Below are positions 835-61,831 of a stretch of 64,000 nt of DNA, in pieces. A program made the position numbers and the translations under genes. The notes under the pieces are model-generated. The model was not told the DNA's origin. It ran no database searches and worked only from the letters and a program-made list of their open reading frames with translations. This stretch comes from Rhodospirillales bacterium (GTDB lineage Bacteria; Pseudomonadota; Alphaproteobacteria; Rhodospirillales; WMHbin7), in NCBI GenBank assembly GCA_016214125.1, contig JACRPC010000018.1, forward strand, positions 62,001 to 126,000. Reading direction: 5' to 3'. Positions within the stretch are counted from its first letter, which is position 1. Each line of letters opens with the position of its first letter.

Positions 835-1347
835 TCATTCGAGCGGCGTGACGTGGACGCGGGTGTCGACCAGGTCCGGCCGGAAGACCAGCCGAAGCGT
901 GCGCACGGTGAGCAGCACCATCGATGCGGCCAGCCCGGCCCAGGCCACCAGGTAGAACATCCAAACCGGCAGGCGCAGATCGTAGGTGAGCACGTTGTCG
1001 GCCCGTACGCTCACCACCTTGGTGCCGACCATCCAGGTGAAGGTCAGCATGACCACCAGGGTGACCAGGGCGGCCAGGATGTCGAGCGCCCGTTTGCCCC
1101 GCCGGCCGGCGACGCTCCACACCAGATCGACCGTGATGTGATCGCCGCGGTAGTTGGCCACCGCAATGCCCCAGAAGACCAGGATGCCGAGCAGAAGGGC
1201 GCTGAAATCGTAGGTGTCGGGAATCGTCCAGTTGAAGAAATAGCGCAGGAAGACGGAGACGAAGGTGAGCGCAGTGACGACGGCGAGGAAGCAAGCCGCC
1301 GTCACCTCGATGCCGTCGATGAAGCGGTCGACCCGGCCGCGATTCAT
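835..1347 (-). CDS. dctQ: TRAP transporter small permease (DctQ)
   Basis: This is the small four-helix membrane subunit of the TRAP importer, which stabilises DctM and the binding protein. I chose the ATG at 1347 (start MNRGRVDRFIDG), which gives 170 residues, the usual length. A longer frame upstream would overlap dctP and has no DctQ-like sequence. Four hydrophobic segments are visible, with a polar stretch (NYRGDHITVDL) typical of the family. It sits between dctP (25 bases upstream) and dctM (10 bases downstream), clearly co-transcribed. No unusual feature is seen. Confidence 0.9.
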   Translation of the reverse strand: MNRGRVDRFIDGIEVTAACFLAVVTALTFVSVFLRYFFNWTIPDTYDFSALLLGILVFWGIAVANYRGDHITVDLVWSVAGRRGKRALDILAALVTLVVMLTFTWMVGTKVVSVRADNVLTYDLRLPVWMFYLVAWAGLAASMVLLTVRTLRLVFRPDLVDTRVHVTPLE

Positions 1348-1372
1348 TCCCCGTCTCCCGCCCCCCGGCCGC

Positions 1373-2407
1373 CTAATAGGCGGCCCGGTGCTTGGCCAGC
1401 GCGGCCCGGAACTCGGCCATCGTCGCCTCGGGATCCAAGCCGGCCTTGCGCACATTGGCCGCCCAGGTGGCCTGCAGAGGCTCGGTCACCTTGCGCCATT
1501 GGGCAACCTGATCGGGGGTGAGCGGATAGACTTCGTGATTGGGATCGTTCTTCAGCTTCTGGATGCCGTCATGCTCGAAGTCGGACCAGGGACCGGCGAT
1601 CCGCCCCGCCCATTCCGAGGTGCAGTGGTCGTCGATCACCTTCTTTTGCGCCGCCGACATCTGGTCGTAGCGCGTCTTGTTGAAGACGAAGGTGAAGGTG
1701 GTGGCATAAAGCGGCACGTCGATATGGTACTTGGTGACCTTGTCAATGCCGAACAGCAGGATCGAGCCCCAGGGGAAGCTCACCGCGTCGGCGACACCCT
1801 TTTCCAGGATGTCGCGCACCTCGGGCGCGCTCGACTGCACGTTGGTGCCGCCGAGTTGCGTGACCAGTTCCGCCATGGTGGCGTGGGCCGGCCTGATCTT
1901 CATGCCGCGCACGTCGGCAGGCACCACCACCTTCTTGCGCGAATGCAACGACCCCGGATCGTGGACGAAGGCCAGGCAGAATTTGACGTCCTTCATCTCC
2001 TTGGCGGCGTATTTGCGGTACCACTCGTCGATGGCCACCGAGCCGCCCTTGGCGTTGCTCATCAGGAAAGGAAGTTCGCCCGCCGCAATCACCGGGAAGC
2101 GGCCGGGCTGGTAGCCGGGATTGATGTAGGTGAGGTCGGCGATGCCGTCGCGCGCCATGTCGTAATGGTCGAAGGCCTTGCCCAATTGCTGCGAGGGAAA
2201 GATGGTCGAGGTGATGGTGCCGTTCGAGGCCTTCTTCACCGAGTCCGCCCAATCCTCCATCGCCTTCTGCAGCGGATGGGTGGGCGGCACCCAATGCGAC
2301 AGCTTGAGCTGCACCGGCTTGTCCTGCGCCTGGGCCGGCCATCCGGCCAGCGTTACGGCGGCACCAAGCCCGAGGACCGCCAGAAGCGCGGCCTTACGAA
2401 TGGTCAT
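1373..2407 (-). CDS. dctP: TRAP transporter substrate-binding protein (DctP)
   Basis: This is the periplasmic solute receptor of the TRAP importer, 344 residues. The first 27 residues form a signal peptide ending near AQAQ. The mature start (PVQLKLSHWVPPTHPL) and the central region with KIRPAHATM and DAVSFPWGS are typical of the DctP fold; an arginine in that central region usually salt-bridges a carboxylate ligand in this family, so the ligand is probably an organic acid. It follows marR by 78 bases and heads dctPQM. Its location behind xdhC and marR suggests that it feeds the molybdenum hydroxylase, which is inference. No specific ligand can be named. Confidence 0.92.
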   Translation of the reverse strand: MTIRKAALLAVLGLGAAVTLAGWPAQAQDKPVQLKLSHWVPPTHPLQKAMEDWADSVKKASNGTITSTIFPSQQLGKAFDHYDMARDGIADLTYINPGYQPGRFPVIAAGELPFLMSNAKGGSVAIDEWYRKYAAKEMKDVKFCLAFVHDPGSLHSRKKVVVPADVRGMKIRPAHATMAELVTQLGGTNVQSSAPEVRDILEKGVADAVSFPWGSILLFGIDKVTKYHIDVPLYATTFTFVFNKTRYDQMSAAQKKVIDDHCTSEWAGRIAGPWSDFEHDGIQKLKNDPNHEVYPLTPDQVAQWRKVTEPLQATWAANVRKAGLDPEATMAEFRAALAKHRAAY

Positions 2408-2958: not shown

Positions 2959-3813
2959 TCAGCCGTTCTTCGGGCCGCCGGCGCGCACCCGCAGAAGCTG
3001 GGCGACGATGCCGATGGCGATTTCGCCCGGCGTGTTGTTGCCCAGCTTGTCGCCCACCGGACAGACAATCCGTTTGAGGAAGGCTTGGCCGACGCCCCGC
3101 TCGCGCAACTCCTTCTTCAGGATCTTGGCCTTGGCGTCGGAGCCGATCACCCCCAAGAAGGCGAGCGGCGGATCGGCCTTTTCCAGGGCTTCGAGAACCG
3201 GGCGATCGGAATGATGGCCCATGGTCATCAGAAGCACCGCCGCGCCGGGCGGCAGGCTGGCCAGGCCCTCGACATAATCCTTGACCAAAAGCGGCACGAT
3301 CTTGTCGCTTTTCGGCAGGCGGGCGATCCACTCCGGGCGGGTGTCGATGCACAGCACTCGGCATTCCAGTTCGGCCAGGACGCGCACCAGTTTCTGGGCG
3401 ACATGGCCGGCGCCGAAGATCGCCACCGTCCAGGCCAATTCGGGCCGCCAGATCTCGAAGAACAGCGTCATATCGCCCGAGCAGGTCATGCCGACATCGC
3501 GGGCCAGATTCCAGCGGAAAAAGGCGGTGGCCGGACCCTTGGGCCGCTCCAGAAGTTCCTTGGCGATGTCGCGGCACTTGGTTTCCACCCGACCGCCGCC
3601 CACCGTGCCCTGGGCCAGGCCCTCGCGGGTGAACACCGCCCGCGCGCCGACGATCTGCGGAATGCTGCCCTTGCCGTCCACCACCGTGGCGACGCAAAAG
3701 GGCGTCCCGCCCTCCTGCAACCGTTCGATTTCGCTGAGAAACACTTTCGAATACACGCCCGATCCCTCGCCCGCCCCGCCCATGACGGTTTGCTCATAAA
3801 ACCAATCGGTCAT
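2959..3813 (-). CDS. xdhC: XdhC-family molybdenum hydroxylase maturation factor
   Basis: XdhC binds molybdenum cofactor, promotes its sulfuration and inserts it into xanthine-oxidase-family enzymes. The 284-residue protein has the N-terminal XdhC/CoxI domain (CVATVVDGKGSIPQ near 39-52, GTVGGGRVE near 88-96) and a C-terminal Rossmann domain (AIFGAGHVAQKLV near 150-162, then CIDTRPEW). It is the first gene of a minus-strand run xdhC-marR-dctPQM and is divergent from the ABC-selD run. The only molybdenum hydroxylase in the window is the HBCR-type enzyme at 16822-20777, so that is its likely client. In selenium-dependent hydroxylases, XdhC-like proteins are thought to act in the selenation step; that role is inferred. 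Confidence 0.92.
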   Translation of the reverse strand: MTDWFYEQTVMGGAGEGSGVYSKVFLSEIERLQEGGTPFCVATVVDGKGSIPQIVGARAVFTREGLAQGTVGGGRVETKCRDIAKELLERPKGPATAFFRWNLARDVGMTCSGDMTLFFEIWRPELAWTVAIFGAGHVAQKLVRVLAELECRVLCIDTRPEWIARLPKSDKIVPLLVKDYVEGLASLPPGAAVLLMTMGHHSDRPVLEALEKADPPLAFLGVIGSDAKAKILKKELRERGVGQAFLKRIVCPVGDKLGNNTPGEIAIGIVAQLLRVRAGGPKNG

Positions 3814-4065: not shown

Positions 4066-5238
4066 ATGTTGAAACGGACACTGTTGTCGGCTGCGGCGCT
4101 GTTGGTGCTGGCCCTGCCGGCCCAAGCCCAGCAAAAGGTTAAGATTGGCTACGTCAACACCTTCAGCGGCCCCACCGCCATGATCGGCGAGGACGAGCGC
4201 TGGGGCTTCGAACTGGCGCTCGATCATATCGGCCGCAAGATGGGTGGGCTCGACGTCGAGGTGGTCTTCGCCGACGACCAGATGAAGCCCGATGTCGGCA
4301 AGCAGGTGACCGAGAAGCTGATCCAAAGCGACAAGGTCCATTTCCTCACCGGCTACAACTGGTCGAACGTGCTCTTGGCCTCGCTCAAGCCCGCGGTCGA
4401 TTCCCAGACCTTCCTCATCAGCGGCAACGCCGGCCCGTCGCCGATCGCCGGCGAGCTCTGCTCGCCCTGGTTCTTCTCGGCCTCGTGGCAGAACGATCAG
4501 ACCGCGATGGCGATGGGCGAAGCCATGAACAAGAAGGGCATCAAAAAGCTCTTCGTGCTGGCACCCAACTACGCGGCCGGCAAGGACATGGCGTCGGGCG
4601 TCAAGCGCACCTTCAAGGGCGAGATCGTCGGCGAGGAATACACCCGCTGGCCCGATCACGTCGATTTCTCGGCCGAGTTCAGCAAGGTACGCGCCGCCAA
4701 TCCCGACGCGGTGTGGATGTTCTATCCCGGCGCGCCCGGCATCCAGTTCTTCTTGCAGTACAACCAGTCGGGCCTGAAGGGCAAGGTGCCGCTCTACTCG
4801 ATCTACGCCCTCGAGGCGCTGACTCTGCCGCACATCGGCGAAGCGGCGATCGGCTTCCAGAGCCCGCAGACCTGGGTGCCCGATCTCGACAACGCCATGA
4901 ACAAGAAGTTCGTGGCCGATTTCCGCAAGCGCCACAACCGCTACCCGACCTACTACTCGGCCCAGGCCTACGACTCGGTCTTCCTGATCAAGAGCGCGGT
5001 CGACGCCGTCAAGGGCGATTTGACCAAGAAGGACGCCATGCGCGACGCCATGCGCAAGGCCGATTTCGACACCACGCGCGGCCGCCTGAAATACGGCAAC
5101 AATCACTTCTTCATCCAGAATTTCTATCTGCAGGAAGTGATCAAGGATGGCGAAGGCAACATCCGCATGAAGCTCTTGGAAACCATCTACAAGGACCATC
5201 AGGATCCGCATCACGACAAATGCCCGATGAAGTGGTAA
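4066..5238 (+). CDS. ABC transporter substrate-binding protein, branched-chain/aromatic type
   Basis: The 390-residue periplasmic receptor of a high-affinity ABC importer (LivJ-like, type I fold). The ATG at 4066 follows GGAGG by 10 bases and starts a signal peptide (MLKRTLLSAAALLVLALP...AQA). A frame opening at 4027 would add residues before the signal peptide and is rejected. The mature N-terminus KVKIGYVNTFSGPTAMIGED is typical of the family. Close relatives known in Rhodopseudomonas bind aromatic acids, which fits the HBCR-like enzyme nearby; actual ligand unknown. It heads the run SBP-livH-livM-livG-livF-selD. Confidence 0.92.
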   Translation: MLKRTLLSAAALLVLALPAQAQQKVKIGYVNTFSGPTAMIGEDERWGFELALDHIGRKMGGLDVEVVFADDQMKPDVGKQVTEKLIQSDKVHFLTGYNWSNVLLASLKPAVDSQTFLISGNAGPSPIAGELCSPWFFSASWQNDQTAMAMGEAMNKKGIKKLFVLAPNYAAGKDMASGVKRTFKGEIVGEEYTRWPDHVDFSAEFSKVRAANPDAVWMFYPGAPGIQFFLQYNQSGLKGKVPLYSIYALEALTLPHIGEAAIGFQSPQTWVPDLDNAMNKKFVADFRKRHNRYPTYYSAQAYDSVFLIKSAVDAVKGDLTKKDAMRDAMRKADFDTTRGRLKYGNNHFFIQNFYLQEVIKDGEGNIRMKLLETIYKDHQDPHHDKCPMKW

Positions 5239-5301: not shown

Positions 5302-6225
5302 ATGACCTTCTTTCTCGAACAGCTTCTAAATGGCGTGCAGCTTGGCCTGCTGCTCTTTCTGTTGGCGGCGGGCCTGACGCTCGTGTTCGGCATTATGGAT
5401 CTGGTCAATCTGGCGCACGGCTCGCTTTACATGGTGGGCGCCTATCTCGCCGCCTCGCTGACCGTGATGCTGAAAAGCTTCGTTCTGGGCGTCATCGCCG
5501 CCCTGGCCGGCACCGCGCTTCTGGGCATCGCGCTCGAGATGCTGGCGCTTAGGCGCCTTTATCCGCGCGACCATCTCGATCACGTGCTGGGCACCTTCGG
5601 CCTCATCCTCTTCTTCAACGAGGCGGTGCGCCTGATCTGGGGCGCCGCCGGCATGACCCTGGCGGTTCCCCCCTATCTCAATGGCCTGGTCGAGGTGCTG
5701 CCCGGCGTCGCCTATCCCATCTACCGGCTGGCGATCATCATCGCCGGCGTGTTGGTGGCGCTGTTCCTTTATGTCTTGGTCCAGCACACGCGAGTCGGCA
5801 TGCTGATCCGCGCCGGCGCCTCGAACCGCGAGATGATCGGCGCCTTGGGCGTCAACATCAACCGGCTCTACACCATCGTCTTCAGCGTCGGCGCCGCCCT
5901 GGCCGCCTTGGCCGGCATCATGGCCGCGCCCATCCTTACCGTGCAGATCGGCATGGGCGAAAACATCCTCATCCTGGCCTTCGTGGTGATCGTTATCGGC
6001 GGCATCGGCTCGGTACGCGGCGCCCTGGTCGCCGCCCTTCTCATCGGCCTCATCGACACCATGGGCCGCGCCTATCTGCCCGATCTGCTGCGCCTGATCT
6101 TCACCGCGCGCGCCGCCTCGGTCACCGGGCCGGCGCTCTCCTCGATGATGATCTATCTGGTGATGGCGGCCTTCCTGATCGTCAGGCCGGAAGGCCTGTT
6201 CCCCGTGCCCAGCGCCCGCCGATGA
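5302..6225 (+). CDS. livH: ABC transporter permease, LivH type
   Basis: This is one of the two inner-membrane permeases of the branched-chain/aromatic-type ABC importer. The 307 residues form about eight hydrophobic helices. Family signatures are GLTLVFGIMDLVNLAHG near the N-terminus and GENILILAFVVIVIGGIGSVRGAL near residue 214, which includes the cytoplasmic coupling loop. The ATG at 5302 begins just after the intercistronic hairpin, and the stop overlaps the next start (ATGA). It works with livM, livG, livF and the upstream receptor. Nothing odd is seen. Confidence 0.92.
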   Translation: MTFFLEQLLNGVQLGLLLFLLAAGLTLVFGIMDLVNLAHGSLYMVGAYLAASLTVMLKSFVLGVIAALAGTALLGIALEMLALRRLYPRDHLDHVLGTFGLILFFNEAVRLIWGAAGMTLAVPPYLNGLVEVLPGVAYPIYRLAIIIAGVLVALFLYVLVQHTRVGMLIRAGASNREMIGALGVNINRLYTIVFSVGAALAALAGIMAAPILTVQIGMGENILILAFVVIVIGGIGSVRGALVAALLIGLIDTMGRAYLPDLLRLIFTARAASVTGPALSSMMIYLVMAAFLIVRPEGLFPVPSARR

Positions 6226-7160
6226 CCTTGAACCGTCGCCTGATCGCCACCGCGCTGCTGCTGGTCGGCTTGGGGCTGATCCCCATCATCGCCAAGTCGA
6301 TCGGCTATCTCTTCCTGCTCACCTTGTTCACCCGCATCGTCATCCTGGCAATCGCCGCCGTCAGCCTCGACCTGATTCTCGGCTTTGGCGGCATGATCAG
6401 CTTCGGCCACGCGGTCTTCCTTGGCATTGGCGGCTACGCGGTCGGCATCGCCGCCCATCACGGCTATTACTCGGCCCTGGTGCAGTGGCCGATCGGCCTG
6501 GCGGCCTCGGCCCTGTTCGGCCTGATCACCGGCGCCCTTTGCCTGCGCACCCGGGGCGTCTATTTCATCATGATCACGCTGGCCTTCTCGCAACTCGTCT
6601 ATTTCCTGTCGGTCGGCATCGACAGCTACGGCAGCGACGACGGCCTTACCATCTACAAACGCAGCACGATGGGCGGGCTGATCGATCTCGGTAACAAGAC
6701 CACCTTCTACTATGTCTGCTACGCAAGCCTGCTGCTTTGCCTGTTCCTGGCCTGGCGGATCGTGCGCTCGCCCTTCGGCCGGGTGATCCAGGCGGCGCGC
6801 TCGAACGAAAACCGACTGCAGGTCCTGGGCATCGCCACCGACCGCTATCGGTTGGTCGCCTACGTCATCGCCTCGACCATGTGCGGCCTGGCGGGCATCC
6901 TGCTCGCCAACCACACCGATTTCATCAGCCCGGCCCTCATCCACTGGACCCGCTCGGGCGATCTGATGATCATGGTCGTGCTGGGCGGCATGGGCACGCT
7001 GTTCGGCCCGGTGGCCGGCACCATCGCGCTGCTGGTGTTGGAAGAGGTGCTGTCCACCATCACCGAGCACTGGATGATCGTCTTGGGGCCGCTGCTTCTT
7101 CTGATGGCGCTGTTCAAGCGCGGCGGGCTGTCGGCGCTTCTGGGCGGGAGGAAGGCGTGA
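6222..7160 (+). CDS. livM: ABC transporter permease, LivM type
   Basis: The second permease of the importer, 312 residues. Characteristic stretches are LDLILGFGGMISFGHAVFLGIGGY (helices 2-3) and VVLGGMGTLFGPVAG near residue 254, the LivM coupling region. Its start overlaps the livH stop by four bases, and its stop TGA overlaps the GTG start of the ATPase gene, so the set is translationally coupled. Partner and substrate are as for the other importer genes. Confidence 0.92.
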   Translation: MTLNRRLIATALLLVGLGLIPIIAKSIGYLFLLTLFTRIVILAIAAVSLDLILGFGGMISFGHAVFLGIGGYAVGIAAHHGYYSALVQWPIGLAASALFGLITGALCLRTRGVYFIMITLAFSQLVYFLSVGIDSYGSDDGLTIYKRSTMGGLIDLGNKTTFYYVCYASLLLCLFLAWRIVRSPFGRVIQAARSNENRLQVLGIATDRYRLVAYVIASTMCGLAGILLANHTDFISPALIHWTRSGDLMIMVVLGGMGTLFGPVAGTIALLVLEEVLSTITEHWMIVLGPLLLLMALFKRGGLSALLGGRKA

Positions 7161-7927
7161 GAGAGGCCCTGGTCGAAGTCGTCGATCTGGTCAAGACCTT
7201 CGGCGGCCTGGTGGCCACCGACGAGGTTTCGCTTACCCTGCATCAGGGCGAGATTCACGCCGTCATCGGCCCCAACGGGGCGGGCAAGACGACGCTCATT
7301 TCGCAGCTTTCCGGGCGGCTCAAGCCCTCGGGCGGCAAGATCCTGATTTCCGGGCGCGACGTCACCCATCTGCCGGTGGCGGCCCGCTCGCGGATGGGCC
7401 TGGCGCGCTCGTTCCAGATCACCTCCCTGTTCTTCGACTTCACCGCGCTCGACAACGTCGCCATCGCCGTTCAGGCCAGCCGGGGCCATTCCTTCCGCTT
7501 CTGGCAGGACGTGACCACCGACGAGGCCATTTACGGTCCCGCCCGCCAATTCCTGTCCCGCTTGGGTCTGGAGGCGCGCGCCCAGGTGCCGGCCGGTGAT
7601 CTCTCCTATGGCGAACAACGCCAGCTCGAGCTGGCGATGGCGCTGGCCACCAAGCCGCGCGTCCTGTTGCTCGACGAACCGATGGCCGGCATGGGCCATG
7701 ACGAATCGGCCAAGATCATCGCCCTGTTGCGCGAGATCAAGAACGACTACGCGATTCTGCTGGTCGAGCACGACATGAAGGCGGTGTTCGCGCTCGCCGA
7801 CCGCATCACCGTGCTGGTCAACGGTGCGGTGCTGGCCAGCGGCCCGCCGGAATCGATTCGCGGCAATCCGGAAGTGCGTCGCGCCTATCTGGGCGAGACG
7901 ACCCCCAAGGAGGGTGGCGTCCGATGA
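7157..7927 (+). CDS. livG: ABC transporter ATP-binding protein, LivG type
   Basis: One of the two cytoplasmic ATPases of the importer, 256 residues. I place the start at the GTG at 7157, which overlaps the livM stop and follows a GGGAGGAAG ribosome site at 7146-7154. The protein then begins VREALVEVVDLVKTFGG. Walker A is GPNGAGKT, the signature is LSYGEQRQLELA (a LivG-type variant of LSGGQ), and Walker B is VLLLDEPMAGM. Upstream frame extension lies inside livM and is not real. It ends overlapping livF. Confidence 0.92.
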   Translation: MREALVEVVDLVKTFGGLVATDEVSLTLHQGEIHAVIGPNGAGKTTLISQLSGRLKPSGGKILISGRDVTHLPVAARSRMGLARSFQITSLFFDFTALDNVAIAVQASRGHSFRFWQDVTTDEAIYGPARQFLSRLGLEARAQVPAGDLSYGEQRQLELAMALATKPRVLLLDEPMAGMGHDESAKIIALLREIKNDYAILLVEHDMKAVFALADRITVLVNGAVLASGPPESIRGNPEVRRAYLGETTPKEGGVR

Positions 7928-8637
7928 GCGCCGACCTGCTGATCGTCGAGGACATCCAGACCTTCTACGGCCACAGCCAAGCGCTGTTCGGCGTCAGCCT
8001 TACCGTGCGTTCCGGCGAGGTGACGACCCTTCTCGGGCGCAACGGCATGGGCAAGACCACCACCGTGCGCTCGATCATGGGCCTGACCAAGGCCGCTCAA
8101 GGCACCATTCGCTTCGAGGGCAAGGACATTCGCAGCCTGCCAGCCTACCGGGTGGCGCAGTTGGGGATGGGGCTGGTGCCCGAGGGCCGCCAGATCTTCC
8201 CCAACCTGACGCTCGAGGAGAATCTGCTGGCCGCCGCCGCCAACCGGCGCGGCCGCGCCCAGCCCTGGACGCTCGAGCGCGTCTACGAGCTTTTTCCCCG
8301 CCTGGCCGAGCGCCGGCGCAACATGGGCGCCAACTTGTCGGGCGGCGAGCAGCAGATGCTGGCGGTGGGCCGCGCCCTGATGACCAATCCGGAACTGCTG
8401 ATCCTCGACGAAGCGACCGAGGGGCTGGCGCCCTTGATCCGCGAGGAAATCTGGTCCTGCCTGACCCACATCAAGGGCATGGGCCAGTCGATCTTGTTGA
8501 TCGACAAGAATCTCGACGCCCTGTTGGCGATCGGCGATCGCCACACCATCTTGGAAAAGGGTAGGGTGGTCTGGCAGGGCAGTTCCGCCCAGCTTGCCGC
8601 CGACGCCCAGACCCAGGAACAATATCTGAGCATCTGA
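7924..8637 (+). CDS. livF: ABC transporter ATP-binding protein, LivF type
   Basis: The second ATPase of the importer, 237 residues. Walker A is GRNGMGKT, the signature is LSGGEQQMLAVGRAL and Walker B is LLILDEATEGL, all typical of LivF. The ATG overlaps the livG stop by four bases. selD begins four bases after its stop, which links selenium metabolism to this transport operon. The product pairs with LivG on the cytoplasmic face of LivH/LivM. Confidence 0.93.
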   Translation: MSADLLIVEDIQTFYGHSQALFGVSLTVRSGEVTTLLGRNGMGKTTTVRSIMGLTKAAQGTIRFEGKDIRSLPAYRVAQLGMGLVPEGRQIFPNLTLEENLLAAAANRRGRAQPWTLERVYELFPRLAERRRNMGANLSGGEQQMLAVGRALMTNPELLILDEATEGLAPLIREEIWSCLTHIKGMGQSILLIDKNLDALLAIGDRHTILEKGRVVWQGSSAQLAADAQTQEQYLSI

Positions 8638-8641
8638 TCCG

Positions 8642-9688
8642 ATGTCCGCCGATTCCGTTCGATTGACCAGCCTGGCCCATGGCGGCGGCTGCGGCTGCAA
8701 GATCGCCCCGGCCCTCTTGGCCGAGCTTCTGGCGGAATTGCCCGAGGGACTGCGCCCGCCCGAGCTTCTGGTCGGCACCGAGAATGGCGACGACGCCGCG
8801 GTCTGGCAACTCAACGACCGCCAAGCCCTGGTCGCCACCACCGATTTCTTCATGCCGATCGTCGACGATCCTTTCGATTTCGGCCGCATCGCCGCCACCA
8901 ACGCGCTCTCCGACGTTTACGCCATGGGCGCCCGCCCGATCTTCGCCTTGGCGCTGGTCGGCATGCCGATTGACAAGCTGGCGCCCGCCGTGATCCGCCA
9001 GATTCTGGCCGGCGGCCAGGAGGCCTGCCGCCAGGCCGGCATTCTGGTGGCGGGCGGCCATTCGATCGATTCGGTCGAGCCGATCTACGGGCTGGTGGCG
9101 CTGGGGCTGGTCGATCCGACAAAAATTCTGCGCAACGACCGCGCCCGGGCCGGCGATGTGCTTATTCTGGGCAAGCCGATCGGCATCGGCATCCTGAGCG
9201 CCGCCCTGAAGAAAGAGGCGCTGGCGCCCGAGGCCTACCGGCGAATGGTGGAACTCACCACCCGGCTCAACACCGCCGGCCCCGATCTGGCGACCCTGGC
9301 CGGGGTGCATGCCGCGACCGACGTCACCGGCTTTGGCCTGTTGGGCCATCTGTGGGAAGTCTGCCGGGGCTCCAGGCTGCGCGCCCGGCTCGATTACGAC
9401 CGGGTGCCGATCCTGCCCGAGGCACAGGCGCTGGTCGGCCAAGGCTTCGCCACCGGCGCCTCGAAGCGCAATTGGGCCAGCTATGGCGCCAACGTCGCCA
9501 TCCCCGAGAGCTGGGCGGAAACCCGGCGCACGCTCTTATGCGATCCGCAGACCTCGGGCGGGTTGCTGGTCGCTTGCGCACCCGAAGCGGCGGCCGATGT
9601 CTTGGCCCTCTTCGTCCGCCACGGCTCGCCGGAAGCAGCGATCATCGGATCGCTTGGTCCCGGCCAACCCGGCATCGACGCAGCCTAG
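8642..9688 (+). CDS. selD: selenide, water dikinase (SelD)
   Basis: SelD makes monoselenophosphate from selenide and ATP, the selenium donor for selenocysteine, 2-selenouridine in tRNA and the labile selenium of some molybdenum hydroxylases. The 348-residue protein has the diagnostic N-terminus LTSLAHGGGCGCKIAP (about 9-24) with the catalytic Cys-Lys pair. The first active-site position is cysteine, not selenocysteine. The AIR-synthase fold is clear (NALSDVYAMGARP, AGGHSI, DVTGFGLLGHL, CDPQTSGGLL). It is the last gene of the ABC operon; no selA, selB or selU gene lies in the window. With yqeB, yqeC and xdhC nearby, a role in hydroxylase selenation is the simplest reading. Confidence 0.95.
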   Translation: MSADSVRLTSLAHGGGCGCKIAPALLAELLAELPEGLRPPELLVGTENGDDAAVWQLNDRQALVATTDFFMPIVDDPFDFGRIAATNALSDVYAMGARPIFALALVGMPIDKLAPAVIRQILAGGQEACRQAGILVAGGHSIDSVEPIYGLVALGLVDPTKILRNDRARAGDVLILGKPIGIGILSAALKKEALAPEAYRRMVELTTRLNTAGPDLATLAGVHAATDVTGFGLLGHLWEVCRGSRLRARLDYDRVPILPEAQALVGQGFATGASKRNWASYGANVAIPESWAETRRTLLCDPQTSGGLLVACAPEAAADVLALFVRHGSPEAAIIGSLGPGQPGIDAA

Positions 9689-16821: not shown

Positions 16822-17829
16822 ATGATTCTGTTCGAGTTCGACCATGAACGCCCGAACACCCCCGACGAGGCGGTGGCCCTCTTGACCCATGCCGGCCCCG
16901 ATGCCCGCCTGCTGGCCGGCGGCACCGATCTTATCCCCAACATGCGCTACCGCACCGTGACGCCGGCGCTGTTGGTCAGCCTGGGCGCCATTCAGCCCGA
17001 GGCGCCGCGCGAGGAGAAGGACGGCAGCCTTAGGCTCGACGCGCTCGCCAAGCTGGTGACGATCGAGAACTCGGCCCTGGTGCGCAAGCGGGCGCCGATG
17101 CTGGCGGAAAGCGCCCACACGGTGGCCGGCAACCAAATCCGTCAGATGGGCACGCTGGGCGGCAATCTCTGCCAGGATACCCGCTGCCTCTATTTCAACC
17201 AGCAGCACGATTTCCAATTCGTGGCGCCTTGCTACAAGCGCGGCGGCGATTGCTGCTACCCCTTCCCGCGCAACGACAAGAGCACCTGCTGGTCGGTCTT
17301 CATGTCCGACATCGCGCCCGCCTTGATCGCGCTTAAGGCCGAGATCGAAATCCAGGGTGAGCAAGGCCTGCGCCGCCAGCCCTTGGAGGCGCTGTACGCC
17401 GGCGACGGCTTGAAGCCGCATAAGTTGGGCCAAGCCGAGCTGCTGCGCGCCGTCATCGTGCCGCCCGCCTCGCCGCGCCAAGGCTGGGGCTATCACAAGG
17501 AGAGCGTGCGCGGCGGGTTGGAATTCGGCATGGCGATCCTGGCCGCCACGGTAACCCTGGCCGCCGACAGCAAGGCCTGCGAAGGGGCGCGGCTGGCGCT
17601 GGGCGCGGTGCGCGAGGCGCCGGTGCGTCTGACCGAAACCGAAAAGGCGATGGCCGGCCAAGCGCTCGACGCCGAGCGGATCGCCGAGATCGCCGAGGCC
17701 GCCAGCCAGGAAGTCAATCCCCTTCCCCATCACGGTTTCACCAAGGCCCATCTGCGCGACGTCATCCGCATTCAGATGCGGCGCCTGCTGGCCCGGGCCG
17801 TCGAGCGGGCGGTCAATCCCAACGCCTAA
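16822..17829 (+). CDS. hcrB: HBCR-type molybdenum hydroxylase, FAD and [4Fe-4S] subunit (beta)
   Basis: The flavoprotein subunit of a heterotrimeric xanthine-oxidase-family enzyme, 335 residues. The FAD-binding motif LLAGGTDLIPNMR (30-42) and GGNLCQDTRC (113-122) are visible. Between them and the C-terminal domain is a roughly 40-residue insertion with Cys122, Cys137, Cys144/145 and Cys156. It matches the loop that holds an extra [4Fe-4S] cluster in 4-hydroxybenzoyl-CoA reductase, where the cluster is thought to invert electron flow so that the enzyme reduces its substrate. Ordinary xanthine dehydrogenases lack this loop. First gene of the operon; 24 bases precede the next subunit gene. Substrate not proven. 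Confidence 0.9.
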   Translation: MILFEFDHERPNTPDEAVALLTHAGPDARLLAGGTDLIPNMRYRTVTPALLVSLGAIQPEAPREEKDGSLRLDALAKLVTIENSALVRKRAPMLAESAHTVAGNQIRQMGTLGGNLCQDTRCLYFNQQHDFQFVAPCYKRGGDCCYPFPRNDKSTCWSVFMSDIAPALIALKAEIEIQGEQGLRRQPLEALYAGDGLKPHKLGQAELLRAVIVPPASPRQGWGYHKESVRGGLEFGMAILAATVTLAADSKACEGARLALGAVREAPVRLTETEKAMAGQALDAERIAEIAEAASQEVNPLPHHGFTKAHLRDVIRIQMRRLLARAVERAVNPNA

Positions 17830-17853
17830 GCCCCATTCTTTGCGAGGTGGAGC

Positions 17854-18384
17854 ATGTATGAACGTCCGGTAAGCGGCCTCGAGGCCAAGACGAAATCCCG
17901 CTCGCGGGTGATCGTGCTGTCGGTCAACGGCGAAACCCACGAGGTGATGGTGCGTCCGCGCCACCGCCTGATCGACGTCATCCGCGATCAGCTCAACCTC
18001 ACCGGCACTAAGGATGGCTGTCAATCGGGCACCTGCGGCGCCTGCACAGTGCTCCTGAACGGCCGCCCGGTGCTGGCCTGCCTGACGCTGGCCGTCGATT
18101 GCGACGGCAAGGAAGTGCGCACCATCGAGGGCCTGGCCGAGAACGGCCAGCTCAACAAGGTGCAGGAAGCCTTCCTCGACCAGGGCGCCATCCAGTGCGG
18201 CTTCTGCACGCCCGGCATGGTGATGTCGGCCACCGCGTTGCTCGACGACAATCCCAAGCCCAGCCGCCACCAGATCGACAAGGCGCTGGAAGGCAATCTC
18301 TGCCGCTGCACCGGCTACAACGCCATCGTCGACGCGGTGTTGCAGGCCTCGGGCCAGGGCGGCGTCAAGCCGGTGATGAAATAA
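17854..18384 (+). CDS. hcrC: molybdenum hydroxylase [2Fe-2S] subunit (gamma)
   Basis: The small electron-transfer subunit with two [2Fe-2S] clusters, 176 residues. The plant-ferredoxin-type cluster is bound by Cys56, Cys61, Cys64 and Cys76 (CQSGTCGAC...C). The second cluster uses Cys115, Cys118, Cys150 and Cys152 (CGFCTPG and CRCTGY). The N-terminus is about 15 residues longer than usual. The ribosome site GAGGTGGAG precedes the ATG. It carries electrons between the flavin/4Fe-4S subunit and the molybdenum subunit encoded on either side. Confidence 0.95.
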   Translation: MYERPVSGLEAKTKSRSRVIVLSVNGETHEVMVRPRHRLIDVIRDQLNLTGTKDGCQSGTCGACTVLLNGRPVLACLTLAVDCDGKEVRTIEGLAENGQLNKVQEAFLDQGAIQCGFCTPGMVMSATALLDDNPKPSRHQIDKALEGNLCRCTGYNAIVDAVLQASGQGGVKPVMK

Positions 18385-18416
18385 GCCGCCAAAGCGGGCG
18401 CGACAACGAGGGCGAC

Positions 18417-20777
18417 ATGGACCAGGGCCTCAACTTCATCGGCAAGAGCTTCAAGCGCAAGGACGGTCCCGACAAGGTGACCGGCCGGGCGGCCTACACC
18501 CAGGACATCCGCCTGCCCAACATGCTGGTGGGACGCGTACTGCGCAGCCCGCATCCGCACGCCCGCATCGTCAGGATCGACACCGCCAAGGCCAAGGCGC
18601 TCGCCGGCGTCAAGGCGGTGATCACCGCCGCAGACACCAAGGGCATCAAGCACGGCTTCGTCGAGACGCCGCGCTACCCGGCCGACCAGAGCGTGCTGGC
18701 CCAGGGCAAGGTCCGCCATGTCGGCGAGGCGATCGCCGCGGTGGCCGCCATCGACGAGATCACCGCCCAGCGGGCCTTGGAGGCGATCGAGATCGAATAC
18801 GAGATTCTGCCCGCCGTCTTCGAGCCCGAGGCCGCCATGCAGCCCGGCGCGCCCGAGATCCATCCCAGCCACCCCAAGGTGGCGATGAAGGAGAATTGGG
18901 CCAACATCGGCGGCAAGACCGAGACCGGCTGGGGCGATGTGGAGAAAGGCTTCGCCGAATCCGACTATGTGCGCGAAGACCGTTTCGATTGCCAGCTTCG
19001 CACCCATGGCTATCTCGAGCCGCATGTGACCCTGGCGCATTGGGAGGCCGAGAAGCTCAACGTCTGGACCTCGTCGATGGGCGCCTTCGTCAAGCGCGCC
19101 AAGCTGGCCAAGACCTTGGACCTGCCGTTTGCTGCCGTGCGCATCCACAAGAGCTATGTCGGCGGCACCTTCGGCGGCAAGATCGATCTTTATCCGCACG
19201 AATACGCCGCCGCCCGGCTGGCGATGATCACCGGTCGGCCGGTCAAGATCGTCATCACGCGCGAGGAAATCTTCCAGGCCTTCCGCCACGCCCAGCCCCT
19301 GATCATCGAGGTCAAGACCGGGGTCAAGAAGGACGGCACCATCCTGGCCCAGGAAATGAAGGTCATCAACAATTCCGGCGCCTATCGCGGCAGCGGCGTG
19401 GTGGTGATCTTCCTCGCCTGGGGCTTCACCATGACCGCCTACCGGATTCCCAATCTCAAATTCCAGGGCTATTCGGTCTACACCAACCTGACCGAACGGG
19501 CGCCGCAGCGCGGCCATGGCAATCCGAAGGTGCGCTTCGCCATCGAATCGCAGATGGACATGATCGCCGAGGCCCTGGGGCTCGACCCGATCCAGATTCG
19601 CCTGAAGAACGCCCGCGACGCCTGGGAGCAGTTGCCCAACGGCGACAACACCCATCAGGCCGGCCTGAAAGATTGCATCAAGATCGCCGCCGAGCGCTCG
19701 GGCCTGTTGGCGAAATACGGCCAGAGCCGCAAGAACCCGCCCGCCGACACGATCCGGCGCGGCGTCGGCATCGGCATCAGCTCCTACATGGGCGGCACGC
19801 TCATCTATCCGAACGGCTCGGGCGTCATCGTCAAGATGAATGATGACGGCTCGGCCACCGTGCTCACCGGCGCCATCGACATCGGCCAGGGCTCGGAGAC
19901 GGTGATCGCCCAGATCGTTGCCGAGGAATTGGGCATCGGCATGGAGGATGTGCGGCTGATCTCGTCGGACACCGACACCACGCCCCAGGACATCGGCGCC
20001 TGGATCAGCGGCATGACCTATGTCACCGGCAACGCGGCGCGGGTCGCCGCCGGCAACGCCCGCGAAAAGCTTCTGGCGCTGGGCGCCGATCGGCTGGGGC
20101 TGGAGGTTTCCGAACTGGGCTTCGGCAACAAGAGCGTGTTCGCCAAAGCCAATCCCGATCTGAAAATCACCTACCGCGAGCTGATTGCCGCCAGCATCGC
20201 CACAAAGCGCGGCGACACCGTGATCGGCGAAGGTTTCTGGCGCACCATGCGCGACGAGCCGGCGCATCCGAGCCTGGCCACCGCCAAGGGCCGCTGGACC
20301 GAGAATTACGCCTACTCGGCCCAGGTGGCCGAGGTCGAGGTCGATCTGGAAACCGGCAAGGCCCGCCTCGTCAAGGCGCTCACCGTGCATGATTGCGGCT
20401 TCCCGATCAATCCGGCCCTGGTCAAGGGTCAGGTCGATGGTCAGGTGTCGATGGCGCTGGGCCACGCCTTCATGGAAGAGATCCTGATCAAGGACGGCTA
20501 TGTGCTGAACCCGACTTGGCTCGATTACCGCATGCCCACCGTGCACGAGCTGGCGCTGTCGGAAGACGTCGACGTCATCACCGAAAAGTACCAGGTCGGC
20601 AAGGCCTACCGCACCAAGGAGGTGGGCGAGGGTCTGGTGTCGGGCATTCTGGCCGCCATCGGCAACGCCATCTACGACGCCACCGGCGTACGGCTGCATT
20701 CCACCCCCTTCAGCGCCGACAAGATCCTGGCCGGCCTGCGCAAGATCGAGCGCCAGAAGCGCCAGGCCGCCGAATAG
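18417..20777 (+). CDS. hcrA: molybdenum hydroxylase, molybdopterin-binding subunit (alpha)
   Basis: The catalytic subunit, 786 residues, starting at the ATG at 18417 (MDQGLNFIGKSFKRKDG); the frame continues upstream through the gamma gene but is not coding there. Cofactor-contact motifs are GGTFGGK (249-255), GAIDIGQGSET (485-495) and the C-terminal VGEG (736-739), whose Glu738 sits where the family's catalytic base is found. Subunit sizes (about 84, 35 and 19 kDa) match 4-hydroxybenzoyl-CoA reductase. Downstream mocA, yqeB and yqeC in the same operon indicate a selenium-containing cofactor. No in-frame TGA is present, so selenium would be cofactor-bound and not selenocysteine. Confidence 0.93.
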   Translation: MDQGLNFIGKSFKRKDGPDKVTGRAAYTQDIRLPNMLVGRVLRSPHPHARIVRIDTAKAKALAGVKAVITAADTKGIKHGFVETPRYPADQSVLAQGKVRHVGEAIAAVAAIDEITAQRALEAIEIEYEILPAVFEPEAAMQPGAPEIHPSHPKVAMKENWANIGGKTETGWGDVEKGFAESDYVREDRFDCQLRTHGYLEPHVTLAHWEAEKLNVWTSSMGAFVKRAKLAKTLDLPFAAVRIHKSYVGGTFGGKIDLYPHEYAAARLAMITGRPVKIVITREEIFQAFRHAQPLIIEVKTGVKKDGTILAQEMKVINNSGAYRGSGVVVIFLAWGFTMTAYRIPNLKFQGYSVYTNLTERAPQRGHGNPKVRFAIESQMDMIAEALGLDPIQIRLKNARDAWEQLPNGDNTHQAGLKDCIKIAAERSGLLAKYGQSRKNPPADTIRRGVGIGISSYMGGTLIYPNGSGVIVKMNDDGSATVLTGAIDIGQGSETVIAQIVAEELGIGMEDVRLISSDTDTTPQDIGAWISGMTYVTGNAARVAAGNAREKLLALGADRLGLEVSELGFGNKSVFAKANPDLKITYRELIAASIATKRGDTVIGEGFWRTMRDEPAHPSLATAKGRWTENYAYSAQVAEVEVDLETGKARLVKALTVHDCGFPINPALVKGQVDGQVSMALGHAFMEEILIKDGYVLNPTWLDYRMPTVHELALSEDVDVITEKYQVGKAYRTKEVGEGLVSGILAAIGNAIYDATGVRLHSTPFSADKILAGLRKIERQKRQAAE

Positions 20778-20779
20778 GG

Positions 20780-21373
20780 ATGATCGCCGGCATCGTTCTG
20801 GCGGCCGGCCTGTCCAGCCGGTTTGGCGGCGCCAACAAGCTCATGGCGCCCGTCGAGGGCGTGCCGCTGATCCGCCGGGTGGCGATGGCGGCCCTGGCCT
20901 CCAAGCTTGATCGCATCGTCGTGGTGCTCGGTCATCAGGCCGACAAGGTTCGCTCCGTGCTGGTCGACCTCGCTCGTGACGAACGGCTTGCCTTCATCGA
21001 AAACGCCGAGCCCGAGAAGGGGCAAAGCGGTTCGGTGCGGATCGGTTTGGGGATGGTCTCCGCCGACTGCGACGCCGCCTTGTTCCTGATGGGCGATCAG
21101 CCCTATCTTGAGCCGCGCATCATCGACGCCCTGATCGACTCCCACCAAGGCGGCATTACGCTGCCGGCGGTGGGCGGCCAGCGGCGCAATCCGGTGATCT
21201 TCGACCGCCAATTCTTTCCCGACATCCTGACCCTGGCCGGCGACACCGGGGCGCGCGCCATCATCGAGGCCAATCGCGCCCGGGTGACGGCGGTTCCTTT
21301 CGATGCCGAGCGCCCTTTCGCCGACATCGACAAGGCCGAGGATCTGGACCGACTCGCTCGGAGCCGCCCATGA
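20780..21373 (+). CDS. mocA: MocA/YgfJ-like molybdenum-cofactor nucleotidyltransferase
   Basis: A 197-residue NTP-transferase related to MobA. MocA-type enzymes attach CMP to molybdopterin to make the dinucleotide cofactor of xanthine-oxidase-family enzymes. The N-terminal nucleotide-binding motif is AGIVLAAGLSSRFGGANKL, and the metal-binding region is LFLMGDQPYLE. The ATG at 20780 lies two bases after the alpha-subunit stop. A YgfJ/MocA relative is a standard member of selenium-dependent hydroxylase clusters. The stop overlaps the yqeB start. Confidence 0.9.
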   Translation: MIAGIVLAAGLSSRFGGANKLMAPVEGVPLIRRVAMAALASKLDRIVVVLGHQADKVRSVLVDLARDERLAFIENAEPEKGQSGSVRIGLGMVSADCDAALFLMGDQPYLEPRIIDALIDSHQGGITLPAVGGQRRNPVIFDRQFFPDILTLAGDTGARAIIEANRARVTAVPFDAERPFADIDKAEDLDRLARSRP

Positions 21374-22179
21374 GGGCGCCGCTCGATCCCCTTATCCGCA
21401 TCAAGGGCGCCGGCGAAATGGCAAGCGCCGTCGCCTGGCGCCTTTACCGCGCCCATCTCGGCCGCATCGTCATGACCGATCTCGAACAGCCTTTATGCGT
21501 ACGGCGCACGGTTTCCTTTTGCGAGGCGCTGATCGACGGCATGGCAACGGTCGAAGGGGTGACCGCCCAGGCGGCCCGCGACGAAACCGACATCGAATCG
21601 ATCTGGCGGCAGGGCCGGATCGCGGTCATGCCGGCCAGCCTGGCCCATGAAGAAGCGCCGATGCCCGACATCCTGATCGACGCCATTCTGGCCAAGCGCA
21701 ATCTCGGCACCCATCTGGCCGACGCCGGCTTGGTGATCGGCCTGGGCCCCGGTTTCACCGCCGGCATCGATTGCCATATCGTGATCGAGACCAATCGCGG
21801 CCACGATCTGGGCCGGGTTCTCGAGCACGGATCGGCTCAGCTCAACACCGGCGTGCCGGGCGACATCGCCGGCCATACCCGGGCCCGGGTGCTGCGCGCC
21901 CCCCGGCTGGGCGTGTTTCGCTCGGAGCGTTCGATCGGCGATCGGGTCGCCAAGGGCGAGACGATCGGCACGGTCGAGGGCGTGCCGGTGCCGGCGGAGC
22001 TGGACGGCATCCTGCGCGGCCTGATAAGGCCGGGCACGCTGGTCGAAGCGGGCCTCAAGATCGGCGACATCGATCCGCGCGCCCAGGCCCATTTCTGCCG
22101 CACCATCTCGGACAAGGCGCGCGCCATCGCTGGTGCGGTGCTGGAAGCGGTGCTGCGCCACGCCAACCGGCCGCGATGA
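21370..22179 (+). CDS. yqeB: YqeB-family selenium-dependent molybdenum hydroxylase maturation protein
   Basis: A 269-residue protein of the YqeB family, whose phylogenetic distribution follows selD and selenium-dependent molybdenum hydroxylases in genomes lacking other selenium uses. The N-terminus IRIKGAGEMASAVAWRLYRA is a Rossmann-like nucleotide-binding start typical of the family. Later motifs are LVIGLGPGFTAGIDCHIVIE and HRGHDLGR-like residues (RGHDLGRV). The exact biochemical step is unknown; insertion or protection of selenium on the molybdenum centre is the working model. It overlaps mocA (ATGA) and yqeC (ATGA). Confidence 0.9.
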   Translation: MRAPLDPLIRIKGAGEMASAVAWRLYRAHLGRIVMTDLEQPLCVRRTVSFCEALIDGMATVEGVTAQAARDETDIESIWRQGRIAVMPASLAHEEAPMPDILIDAILAKRNLGTHLADAGLVIGLGPGFTAGIDCHIVIETNRGHDLGRVLEHGSAQLNTGVPGDIAGHTRARVLRAPRLGVFRSERSIGDRVAKGETIGTVEGVPVPAELDGILRGLIRPGTLVEAGLKIGDIDPRAQAHFCRTISDKARAIAGAVLEAVLRHANRPR

Positions 22180-22958
22180 CCGAACTCATCGATGCCTTGG
22201 GACTCGGCGAGGCGCGGCTGGTGGCGATCACCGGCGGCGGCGGCAAGACCAGCCTGATGAAAGGGCTGGCGGCCGAGTGGGGGGCAGCCGGCCAGCGGGT
22301 GCTCGTCACCACCACGACCAAGATCGCCGCCGACGAGGCGGAAGGCCCCTGGCCGTCCTTTGCCGCCAAAGATGCCGGCGCCATTGCCGCCAAGGCCCGG
22401 GCGGCGATGCCGGGCGCGGGCGCGGTGATCGCCTATTCGGACAGGAGCCGGGATGGTTTTCGGCTGGTCGGCTTCGCGCCCGAGATTCTCGATGCCCTTC
22501 TGGCCGAGCGCGTTTTCGATCGCATCGTCGCCGAGGCCGACGGCTCGGCCCGTTTGCCCTTGAAGGCGCCAGCCGCCCACGAACCGGTGATTCCCCCAAC
22601 CGCCGACGCGGTGGTGATGGTGGCCGGACTGATCGGGCTGGGCCGGCCGCTTGATCGCGACACCGTCTTTCGTCCGGAACTGTTCGGCGCACGCACCGGC
22701 CTGGCGCAAGGCGACGCCATCACCCCCTTGGCGCTGGCCCGCATCCTTCTTCATCGCCAGGGACTGGCGCAATACGCGCCGCCCGAGGCGGCGCTTTGTG
22801 CCTTCCTCAACCGCACCGACGATGCCGCACGACTGGCCTGGGCTGAGGAAACGGCGGCGGCCTTGCGGGCACTCAAGCCCGCGCGGGCCATCCGGTTGGC
22901 TTGGGGCTGCCTGAAACCGAACCCCATGATCGCCGGGTGGACGCGGATTGGCGGTTAG
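22176..22958 (+). CDS. yqeC: YqeC-family selenium cofactor biosynthesis protein
   Basis: A 260-residue putative nucleotide-binding protein of the YqeC family, the second marker of selenium-dependent molybdenum hydroxylases. A P-loop-like GGGGKTSLMKGLA (about 19-31) and TTTTKIA follow the N-terminus, and EADGSARLPLKAPAAHEPVIP is the family's central signature. The start ATG at 22176 overlaps the yqeB stop. The stop codon overlaps, tail to tail, the stop of the sensor kinase on the other strand (22955-22958), leaving no room for an intergenic terminator. Its biochemical activity has not been established. Confidence 0.9.
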   Translation: MTELIDALGLGEARLVAITGGGGKTSLMKGLAAEWGAAGQRVLVTTTTKIAADEAEGPWPSFAAKDAGAIAAKARAAMPGAGAVIAYSDRSRDGFRLVGFAPEILDALLAERVFDRIVAEADGSARLPLKAPAAHEPVIPPTADAVVMVAGLIGLGRPLDRDTVFRPELFGARTGLAQGDAITPLALARILLHRQGLAQYAPPEAALCAFLNRTDDAARLAWAEETAAALRALKPARAIRLAWGCLKPNPMIAGWTRIGG

Positions 22959-60686: not shown

Positions 60687-61823
60687 ATGACCGCCGTCTA
60701 TCTCGACCATAACGCCACCACGCCGGTTCGGCCCGAGGCCGTCCGCGCGGTGGCGGACGCTTTGGCCGAGACCGGCAATCCTTCGGCCACCCACGCCTAT
60801 GGCCGGCGCGCCCGCGCCCGGCTCGAGACGGCGCGCGAGGCGGTGGCCGAGCTGGTGGGCGCCCAGCCCAACCAGGTCGCGTTCACCGCCGGCGGCACCG
60901 AAGCCAACGCCCTGGCCCTGCTGGGCAGCGGGCGAGCCCGCCTGCTGGTGTCGGCGGTCGAGCATGAATCGGTCTTGAAGGCCCGCCCCGATGCCGAGAT
61001 CGTGCCGGTCGATGGCGACGGCGTGATCGATCTCGACGCCCTCAAGCGGATGCTGGCCACCGATCGGCGCCCCGCCCAAATCGCCCTCATGCTCGCCAAC
61101 AACATCACCGGGGTGATCCAGCCGCTGGCCGAGGCGGCCCATATCGCCAAGCAGGCGGGCGCGCTTCTGCATTGCGACGCCATCCAGGCGGCGGGCAAGA
61201 TCGCCCTCGACCTCAAGGCGCTGGGCGCCGATACGCTGGCGCTTTCGGCCCACAAGCTGGGCGGACCTCAGGGCGCCGGGGCGCTTATCGTCGCCGAAGG
61301 CGTTGCGCTCGCACCCCAGATCCGGGGCGGCGGCCAGGAAAGCAACTTGCGTTCCGGCACCGAGCCGGTGCCCGCCCTGGCCGGCTTCGGCGCCGCCGCC
61401 AAGGCGGCGCGCCAAGGGCTTGCCCGTTTTGCCGAAATCGAACCCCTGCGCGACCGTATGGAAGCCGATATCCAAGCGCTTTCGCCCCAAACGGTGATCT
61501 TCGCCCAATCCCGCCCCCGTCTGCCCAACACCAGCGCCATCGCCCTTAAGGGCGAGAGGAACGACCAACTGGCCATGCGGCTCGATCTGGCCGGCGTGAT
61601 GGTGAGCGCCGGCGCCGCCTGCGCCGCCGGCAAGATCGCCAAGGGCCATGTTCTGGCCGCCATGGGGGTCGAACCCGAGCTGGCTCAGGGCTCGCTCCGC
61701 CTCACTCTTGGCTGGACCACCACCTTGGCGGAAATAGAGTTTTTCCGAAACGCCTGGGCCGATCTGATTTCCGGGCTTGCAAATCGGCATTCGAGTACCA
61801 AAATAGACGCCGACGCCGCCTGA
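60687..61823 (+). CDS. cysteine desulfurase, second NifS/IscS-type copy
   Basis: A 378-residue PLP enzyme of the class V aminotransferase fold. [15 protein letters not shown] at the start, the PLP-lysine in [13 protein letters not shown], and the catalytic cysteine in [10 protein letters not shown] are visible. It is more diverged than the following iscS and has a shorter active-site loop. Such pairs at the head of isc/suf operons are common in alphaproteobacteria. It could also serve as a selenium source enzyme, but nothing in the sequence shows this. Confidence 0.92.
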
Positions 61824-61831
61824 GGAGGGGT

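Follow-up and report, generated by a model that had tools for sequence, protein, structure and literature searches.

A putative selenium-dependent molybdenum enzyme of a 4-hydroxybenzoyl-CoA reductase-like clade encoded in a Rhodospirillales genome

Organization of the operon

The analyzed stretch of 64,000 nucleotides from a Rhodospirillales bacterium (contig JACRPC010000018.1, positions 62,001 to 126,000; hereafter the window) contains an operon that probably encodes a selenium-dependent molybdenum enzyme belonging to a clade that resembles 4-hydroxybenzoyl-CoA reductase (4-HBCR), as judged from the genes with which the enzyme is associated. The operon is composed of six genes positioned head to tail on the forward strand at 16822–22958, with gaps of 24, 32, 2, −4, and −4 bases between them (Table 1). 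Pfam identified the FAD, 2Fe-2S, and molybdopterin domains of the xanthine oxidase (XO) family in the encoded proteins, whereas all NCBIfam small-subunit models scored the 2Fe-2S subunit below their cut-offs. The gene of the Mo subunit most likely starts at 18417, not at 18315, because the ATG at 18315 is located within the preceding gene, and the orthologous open reading frame (ORF) from genome G079 of the same class also encodes 786 residues.

The sequence-only reading of the window described three enzyme subunit genes followed by mocA-, yqeB-, and yqeC-like genes, with selD and xdhC nearby. The coordinates of all these genes hold, and their identities agree with the Pfam and NCBIfam matches: YqeB, YqeC, and SelD exceed the curated cut-offs of their families, and XdhC is recognized by both of its Pfam domains. 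The selD gene is the only copy above the cut-off in the whole genome. The gene set of the operon is not a product of chance, because YqeB is rare in the class and the same set is found again in G079 and in named relatives. In G079, the genes for the enzyme, a CoA ligase, MocA, YqeB, YqeC, and SelD are located side by side.

Table 1. Positions in the window of the operon genes, conserved segments of their products, and neighbouring genes
Feature	Position	Strand	Basis
XdhC-like Mo-cofactor chaperone	2959..3813	-	Both XdhC domains pass in Pfam
Substrate-binding protein of Liv/Urt-type ATP-binding cassette (ABC) importer	4066..5238	+	Sequence comparison
Permeases and ATPases of Liv/Urt-type ABC importer	5302-6225, 6222-7160, ~7157-7927, 7924-8637	+	Block 5302..8637
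SelD, selenophosphate synthetase	8642..9688	+	TIGR00476, 434.5 bits, above cut-off of 125
FAD subunit, 335 residues, 4-HBCR beta-like	16822..17829	+	Pfam FAD_binding_5 and CO_deh_flav_C; best PDB match 1rm6_B
Four-cysteine loop of FAD subunit (Cys122, Cys137, Cys145, Cys156)	17185..17289	+	Alignment to 1rm6_B
2Fe-2S subunit, 176 residues	17854..18384	+	Pfam Fer2_2 and Fer2
Mo (alpha) subunit, 786 residues	18417..20777	+	Pfam MoCoBD_1, MoCoBD_2, and Ald_Xan_dh_C; best PDB match 1rm6_A
Clade-specific loop TPQDIGAWISGM, Mo-subunit residues 522-533	19980..20015	+	Gly532; Arg in 32 of 33 outgroup rows
YRTKEVGE, Mo-subunit residues 731-738	20607..20630	+	Arg732 and Thr733; Gly and Ala in 32 of 33 outgroup rows
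MocA-like Mo-cofactor cytidylyltransferase	20780..21373	+	Pfam NTP_transf_3; TIGR03310 best model
YqeB, selenium-cofactor maturation marker	21370..22179	+	NCBIfam TIGR03309, 328.2 bits, above cut-off of 220
YqeC, P-loop NTPase-like maturation marker	22176..22958	+	NCBIfam TIGR03172, 171.6 bits, above cut-off of 73.05; Pfam YqeC

Distribution of the enzyme clade and its association with yqeB and selD

Searches of the class and phylum with the Mo subunit considered best matches, and no more than two candidates were scored in each genome. Matches with an E-value of 1e-100 or better were found in 72 of 385 same-class genomes; among the matches listed, only that of G079 is close (77% identity), and the others share 31–39% identity. 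When the phylum was searched (398 genomes), only the genome of the window itself passed at 1e-150. Genomes of named species provided 26 Mo-subunit loci with 62–79% identity, all from metagenome-assembled genomes, whereas the non-clade relatives compared reach at most 41%. In a tree of 60 Mo-subunit rows with Escherichia coli XdhD as the outgroup, the 27 rows of the clade form one group with an SH-aLRT support of 100%. The tree was calculated in quick mode without bootstrap; several long branches meet in it, and its deeper order is unsure. Locus L091 was left out because its Mo-subunit match is broken between frames; in this Burkholderiales locus (L091:9992-12360) the gene is split over two reading frames, which may reflect an assembly error or decay.

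The sequence-only reading regarded a complete set of maturation genes as unusual for a Rhodospirillales-like genome. This is true within the class, where YqeB exceeds the cut-off in 4 of 385 genomes (that of the window, G079, G073, and G285; the full-length match in G318, with 182 bits, is below it), but the clade as a whole extends to Betaproteobacteria/Burkholderiales, Rhodospirillaceae and other alphaproteobacteria, Desulfobacula and other deltaproteobacterial genomes, and one member of Calditrichota. G285 and G073, which are 2.1–2.2 Mb in size, contain selD adjoining yqeB, with yqeC and xdhC nearby (L032, L033), possibly as a transferred set. Their YqeB proteins score higher than that of the window (367 versus 328 bits), and neither genome has a Mo-subunit match at 1e-100.

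The presence of yqeB follows that of the clade enzyme. YqeB is above the cut-off in all but one of the 28 clade genomes (25 of the 26 named ones, that of the window, and G079) and in none of the 70 same-class genomes that hold only non-clade Mo-subunit homologues (Fisher p ~3e-23, which ignores kinship and the unequal sampling of the two sets). At 14 of the 26 named loci, yqeB is located within the locus stretch. SelD exceeds the cut-off in 25 of the 26 named genomes, and the remaining one, G759, has a match to the first 27 positions of the model (E 5.6e-6), about 200 bases past yqeB at a contig end.

A selD gene in a genome without selenocysteine or selenouridine genes was proposed by Haft and Self as a mark of the labile-selenium trait (PMC2276186). 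Among the 27 clade genomes other than that of the window (26 named and G079), selB is above the cut-off in 20 and mnmH in 11, and neither exceeds it in G079, G759, and G760. We counted G760 as having mnmH because it contains two sub-cut-off pieces of the gene (202.6 and 182.6 bits). The assembly of G759 comprises 2.1 Mb, and only the fragment of selD was found in it. In contrast, G079 is 96% complete, with approximately 5% contamination, and its selD (365.3 bits) adjoins yqeC and the operon. No other single observation suggests as strongly as this orphan selD that the clade enzyme uses selenium. Together with the YqeB and YqeC scores and the occurrence of yqeB in the clade, the orphan selD supports the selenium dependence proposed from the sequence of the window alone.

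The question of whether selD has another use in the genome of the window has a mixed answer: selB is present, and mnmH/selU does not exceed the cut-off. A long ORF close to selB (L036, G000:C40:160000-178000) presumably encodes a formate dehydrogenase alpha chain that starts past the usual selenocysteine site. Among the 25 clade genomes in which selD exceeds the cut-off, 12 (L135, L137, L139–L148) have a best selD match that continues across one TGA codon, and therefore SelD itself may contain selenocysteine.

Relationship of the enzyme to 4-HBCR and other known systems

The Mo subunit is most similar to that of 4-HBCR from Thauera aromatica (PDB: 1RM6), with a score of 412.1 bits to chain 1rm6_A, approximately 280 bits to the next best PDB entry, and 216.7 bits to 3hrd_A. 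The FAD subunit scores 140 bits with the beta subunit of 4-HBCR (1rm6_B) and 97 bits with the next best match. The best NCBIfam model for both subunits is that of 4-HBCR. Nevertheless, a canonical 4-HBCR identity was rejected, with all three models below their cut-offs (TIGR03194, 633.1 of 994.55 bits; TIGR03195, 218 of 404.55; TIGR03193, 186.8 of 257.8). The cut-off of the Mo-subunit model is also missed by the three relatives that were scored (L068, L085, and L093). Identification as a selenium-dependent xanthine dehydrogenase (Se-XDH; TIGR03311, cut-off 830.45, with 323.9 bits for the Mo chain and 164.3 for the FeS chain) or as a xanthine dehydrogenase according to the XdhA/PucD models (524.7 of 780, 520.5 of 916, and 443.4 of 783.65 bits) was rejected on the same grounds.

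The loop cysteines of the FAD subunit align with Cys122, 138, 146, and 155 of 1rm6_B, which we take to be ligands of the 4Fe-4S cluster of the 4-HBCR beta subunit. All four are retained in each of the 25 clade FAD subunits; the stretches of L073, L083, and L090 begin at the Mo gene and include no FAD subunit. In the Mo subunit, 68 positions distinguish the clade from 33 outgroup rows, and at two of them a near-constant residue is swapped, with Gly532 replacing Arg and Arg732 replacing Gly. The loops around these residues are presumably close to the molybdenum, as in structures of this family. The last glutamate of the YRTKEVGE segment aligns with that of the 4-HBCR KEASEG motif, which we assume to be the catalytic residue of the active site, and Arg732 precedes it by six residues. 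A change from Gln to Met at residue 221, near the molybdenum, was considered as a mark of selenium and dropped because clade member L085 carries Gln at this position.

Two other Mo enzymes were observed alongside the clade. A paralogue in the genome of the window (L067, G000:C4:33336-35618; 39% identity) has Gln in place of Glu738 of the clade and lies closest in the tree to the second Mo enzyme of L074. L075 contains a second XO-family operon (L075:247-5612) directly before the clade enzyme, with a Mo subunit above the 4-HBCR alpha cut-off (1211.3 versus 994.55 bits), an FAD subunit without the four-cysteine loop, and genes for XdhC and YqeB. The two Mo enzymes of L075 may share selenium maturation.

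Several known systems are close to that of the window. Selenium-dependent molybdenum hydroxylases (SDMHs), represented by the nicotinate dehydrogenase of Eubacterium barkeri (PDB: 3HRD) and Se-XDH EF2570/TIGR03311, are likewise XO-family Mo enzymes with YqeB, YqeC, MocA-like, XdhC, and SelD proteins encoded nearby. In contrast to them, the window enzyme has a 4-HBCR-like FAD subunit, its Mo subunit scores almost twice as high with 1rm6_A as with 3hrd_A, it misses TIGR03311, and its relatives have CoA ligases encoded beside the enzyme. T. aromatica 4-HBCR shares the subunit make-up and the four extra cysteines, whereas the window enzyme falls short of all three 4-HBCR models, is linked to yqeB, yqeC, and selD, and belongs to a clade with loops differing from those of the outgroup rows. 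In the E. coli xdhD-yqeB-yqeC-mocA region, an XO-family enzyme is likewise accompanied by accessory genes of these kinds; however, XdhD fuses the FeS and Mo parts, and E. coli YqeB bears an XdhC-like N-terminal part. The urolithin C dehydroxylase Ucdh from Enterocloster bolteae, compared here through its published description, is an XO-family enzyme that removes a phenolic hydroxyl, has 4-HBCR as its nearest characterized relative, and is more active when co-expressed with XdhC; the main text of the Ucdh paper mentions neither selenium nor YqeB (PMC12771579). The window enzyme belongs to none of the characterized SDMH types, and the term hydroxylase used in the sequence-only reading may imply the wrong direction of the reaction because the enzyme is 4-HBCR-like and has the extra four-cysteine loop.

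Proposed maturation, substrate, and alternative explanations

The enzyme would be assembled, like 4-HBCR, from an FAD subunit with the additional four-cysteine loop, a 2Fe-2S subunit, and a Mo subunit, and its molybdenum-cytosine-dinucleotide centre would carry a labile selenium in place of the usual sulfur. In the proposed maturation, SelD would make selenophosphate, MocA would add CMP to molybdopterin, and XdhC would hold the Mo cofactor, while YqeB and YqeC may swap the ligand for selenium and aid the insertion. In the predicted structure of YqeB (mean pLDDT 88.9), the first part is Rossmann-like (for example, 4jn6_B, Z 10.4, root-mean-square deviation (rmsd) 4.0 over 154 residues). Residues ~160–237 form a barrel that matches biotinyl domains (BCCP 5gu9, Z 10.4, rmsd 1.2, 65 residues) and, equally well, a desuccinylase-type barrel (6twm, Z 10.8, rmsd 1.6, 72 residues). 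A biotin- or lipoate-carrier role of YqeB was rejected: the barrel is biotinyl-like, but the aligned hairpin stretch has no conserved lysine. Cys243 is invariant in the 15 YqeBs of the clade alignment and is absent from E. coli YqeB. Foldseek comparison of YqeB to the PDB provided 11 matches with E below 0.001 and TM-scores of at most 0.26, and that of YqeC provided none below this E-value. The YqeC model (pLDDT 95.2) matches the SIMIBI GTPases FtsY (Z 12.7, rmsd 3.1, 176 residues) and MeaB (Z 11.0, rmsd 3.3, 169 residues), the latter of which is a metallochaperone. The fold of YqeC suggests a role in nucleoside triphosphate-driven cofactor loading, with the caveat that a shared fold alone shows no function. 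The loading of selenium onto molybdenum is described as the least understood route of selenium use, and deletion of yqeB in C. difficile behaves like the loss of selD on xanthine and uric acid (PMC11448449). A 2016 survey of more than 5200 bacteria assigned the SelD/YqeB/YqeC trait to 312 (6.0%), and 79.8% of these 312 are anaerobic (PMC5029168).

With moderate confidence, the substrate may be assigned as an aromatic acid or its CoA thioester, which the ABC importer adjoining selD would bring into the cell. A gene for a PaaK-like CoA ligase is located behind the Mo gene at 15 of the 26 named loci and in G079, and the stretches of L072, L082, and L086 end too early to reveal one. The ligase of L068 scores 255.8 bits, below the PaaK cut-off of 646.3. 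Other aromatic-acid genes occur near single members of the clade: phenylphosphate carboxylase beta 8 kb downstream in L085 from Desulfobacula (589.1 bits, cut-off 468.95), with phosphoenolpyruvate-synthase-like genes in between; a UbiD-family decarboxylase above the cut-off in L093; and a benzoate-CoA ligase family member approximately 7 kb upstream in L092 (607.6 bits, cut-off 375.25). It is possible, as a tentative and more specific reading, that the enzyme is a selenium-dependent, reductive, 4-HBCR-like dehydroxylase of aroyl-CoA or aromatic acids, and that its clade stands apart, with members in uncultured proteobacteria and desulfobacteria.

Several observations weigh against the selenium dependence or the aromatic substrate. 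Since selB is present in the genome of the window, selD also serves selenocysteine there, and its presence alone therefore proves nothing. The evidence from G079 has a weak point in that the operon is located on an 18-kb contig, and the assembly has approximately 5% contamination. In the Calditrichota genome G762, the enzyme and selD are present but no match to yqeB was found, and seven loci (L085–L090 and L093) lack yqeB in the locus stretch, with six of the seven genomes carrying it elsewhere. In the window, XdhC and MocA are below the cut-offs of TIGR02964 (149.9 versus 161.6 bits) and TIGR03310 of the YgfJ family (156.1 versus 186.45 bits). The four-cysteine loop also occurs outside the clade, since one of the four paralogous FAD subunits, that of L077, has it. 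The window contains no PaaK-like CoA ligase, and the best match in the whole genome (267 bits, 35% identity) is not at the level of an orthologue; therefore, the assignment of a CoA thioester as the substrate is not firm in this organism. In C. difficile, deletion of yqeC has no obvious phenotype, and the double mutant is only partly complemented by yqeB (PMC11448449). E. coli has yqeB, yet no labile-selenium enzyme had been observed in it by 2008 (PMC2276186).

Instead of an aromatic acid, a selenium-dependent enzyme could act on an N-heterocycle such as purine or nicotinate, in which case the likeness to 4-HBCR would be architectural only and the importer would carry a nucleobase-like compound. 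SDMHs have been implicated in purine degradation (PMC11448449), the operon of the window has no adjoining CoA ligase, and the importer resembles urea and branched-chain types without reaching the cut-off of any substrate-specific model. However, the constant cysteines of the clade FAD subunits, the CoA ligases and the other aromatic-acid genes at relatives' loci, and the scores far below the cut-offs of the xanthine dehydrogenase and Se-XDH models make an N-heterocycle unlikely. An ordinary sulfur-dependent enzyme, the cofactor of which is matured by YqeB, YqeC, MocA, and XdhC without selenium while selD is linked through the selenocysteine trait alone, is somewhat less probable again. The selB gene of the window's genome and of most relatives would fit such an explanation, and the 2016 survey noted that YqeB or YqeC alone may have roles unrelated to selenium (PMC5029168). 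However, the two markers occur together in the window operon, yqeB exceeds the cut-off in none of the 70 genomes with only non-clade homologues, and selD adjoins the operon in G079, where no selB or mnmH exceeds the cut-off; G759 agrees with this, within the limits of its assembly. A plain, selenium-free 4-HBCR of a divergent branch, to which the best PDB and NCBIfam matches of the Mo and FAD subunits point, is very improbable, because each of the three subunits scores well short of its 4-HBCR cut-off, the clade has residues of its own in otherwise near-constant loops, and it is linked to yqeB.

If the operon does encode a selenium-dependent, reductive, 4-HBCR-like enzyme acting on aromatic acids or their CoA esters, it would represent, as judged from a literature search, the first case of a labile selenium cofactor serving the anaerobic catabolism of aromatic acids and a low-potential reduction. 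The search, which covered titles and abstracts of open-licence papers, found nothing linking yqeB or labile selenium with 4-HBCR-type enzymes and no description of the clade. With an aromatic acid as the substrate, models of how aromatic compounds are broken down anaerobically in sediments and groundwater would have to include the supply of selenium. The clade also offers a compact gene set from Gram-negative bacteria that could be expressed as one block to probe the roles of YqeB and YqeC, and G079 has no other selenium use detected by selB or mnmH.

The genes at 3–9.7 kb of the window are tied to the operon by more than proximity, since the importer and XdhC are related to proteins encoded at other clade loci. 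The importer gene block stops 4 bases upstream of selD. Its permease and ATPase share 63–64% identity with those of the importer encoded directly downstream of yqeC in L068, and its binding protein shares 49% identity with the counterpart downstream of yqeC in L068 and 30–33% with those in L091 and L092. XdhC is 55–58% identical to the XdhCs of L068, L071, and L080. Genes for the DctQ and DctP components of a tripartite ATP-independent periplasmic (TRAP) transporter adjoin xdhC (835–2407, reverse strand), and TRAP binding proteins also come after the ligase in the Desulfobacula loci L088 and L090. At 60687–63085, the window contains two tandem class-V aminotransferase genes, the products of which are possibly cysteine-desulfurase-like and could in principle supply sulfur or selenium.

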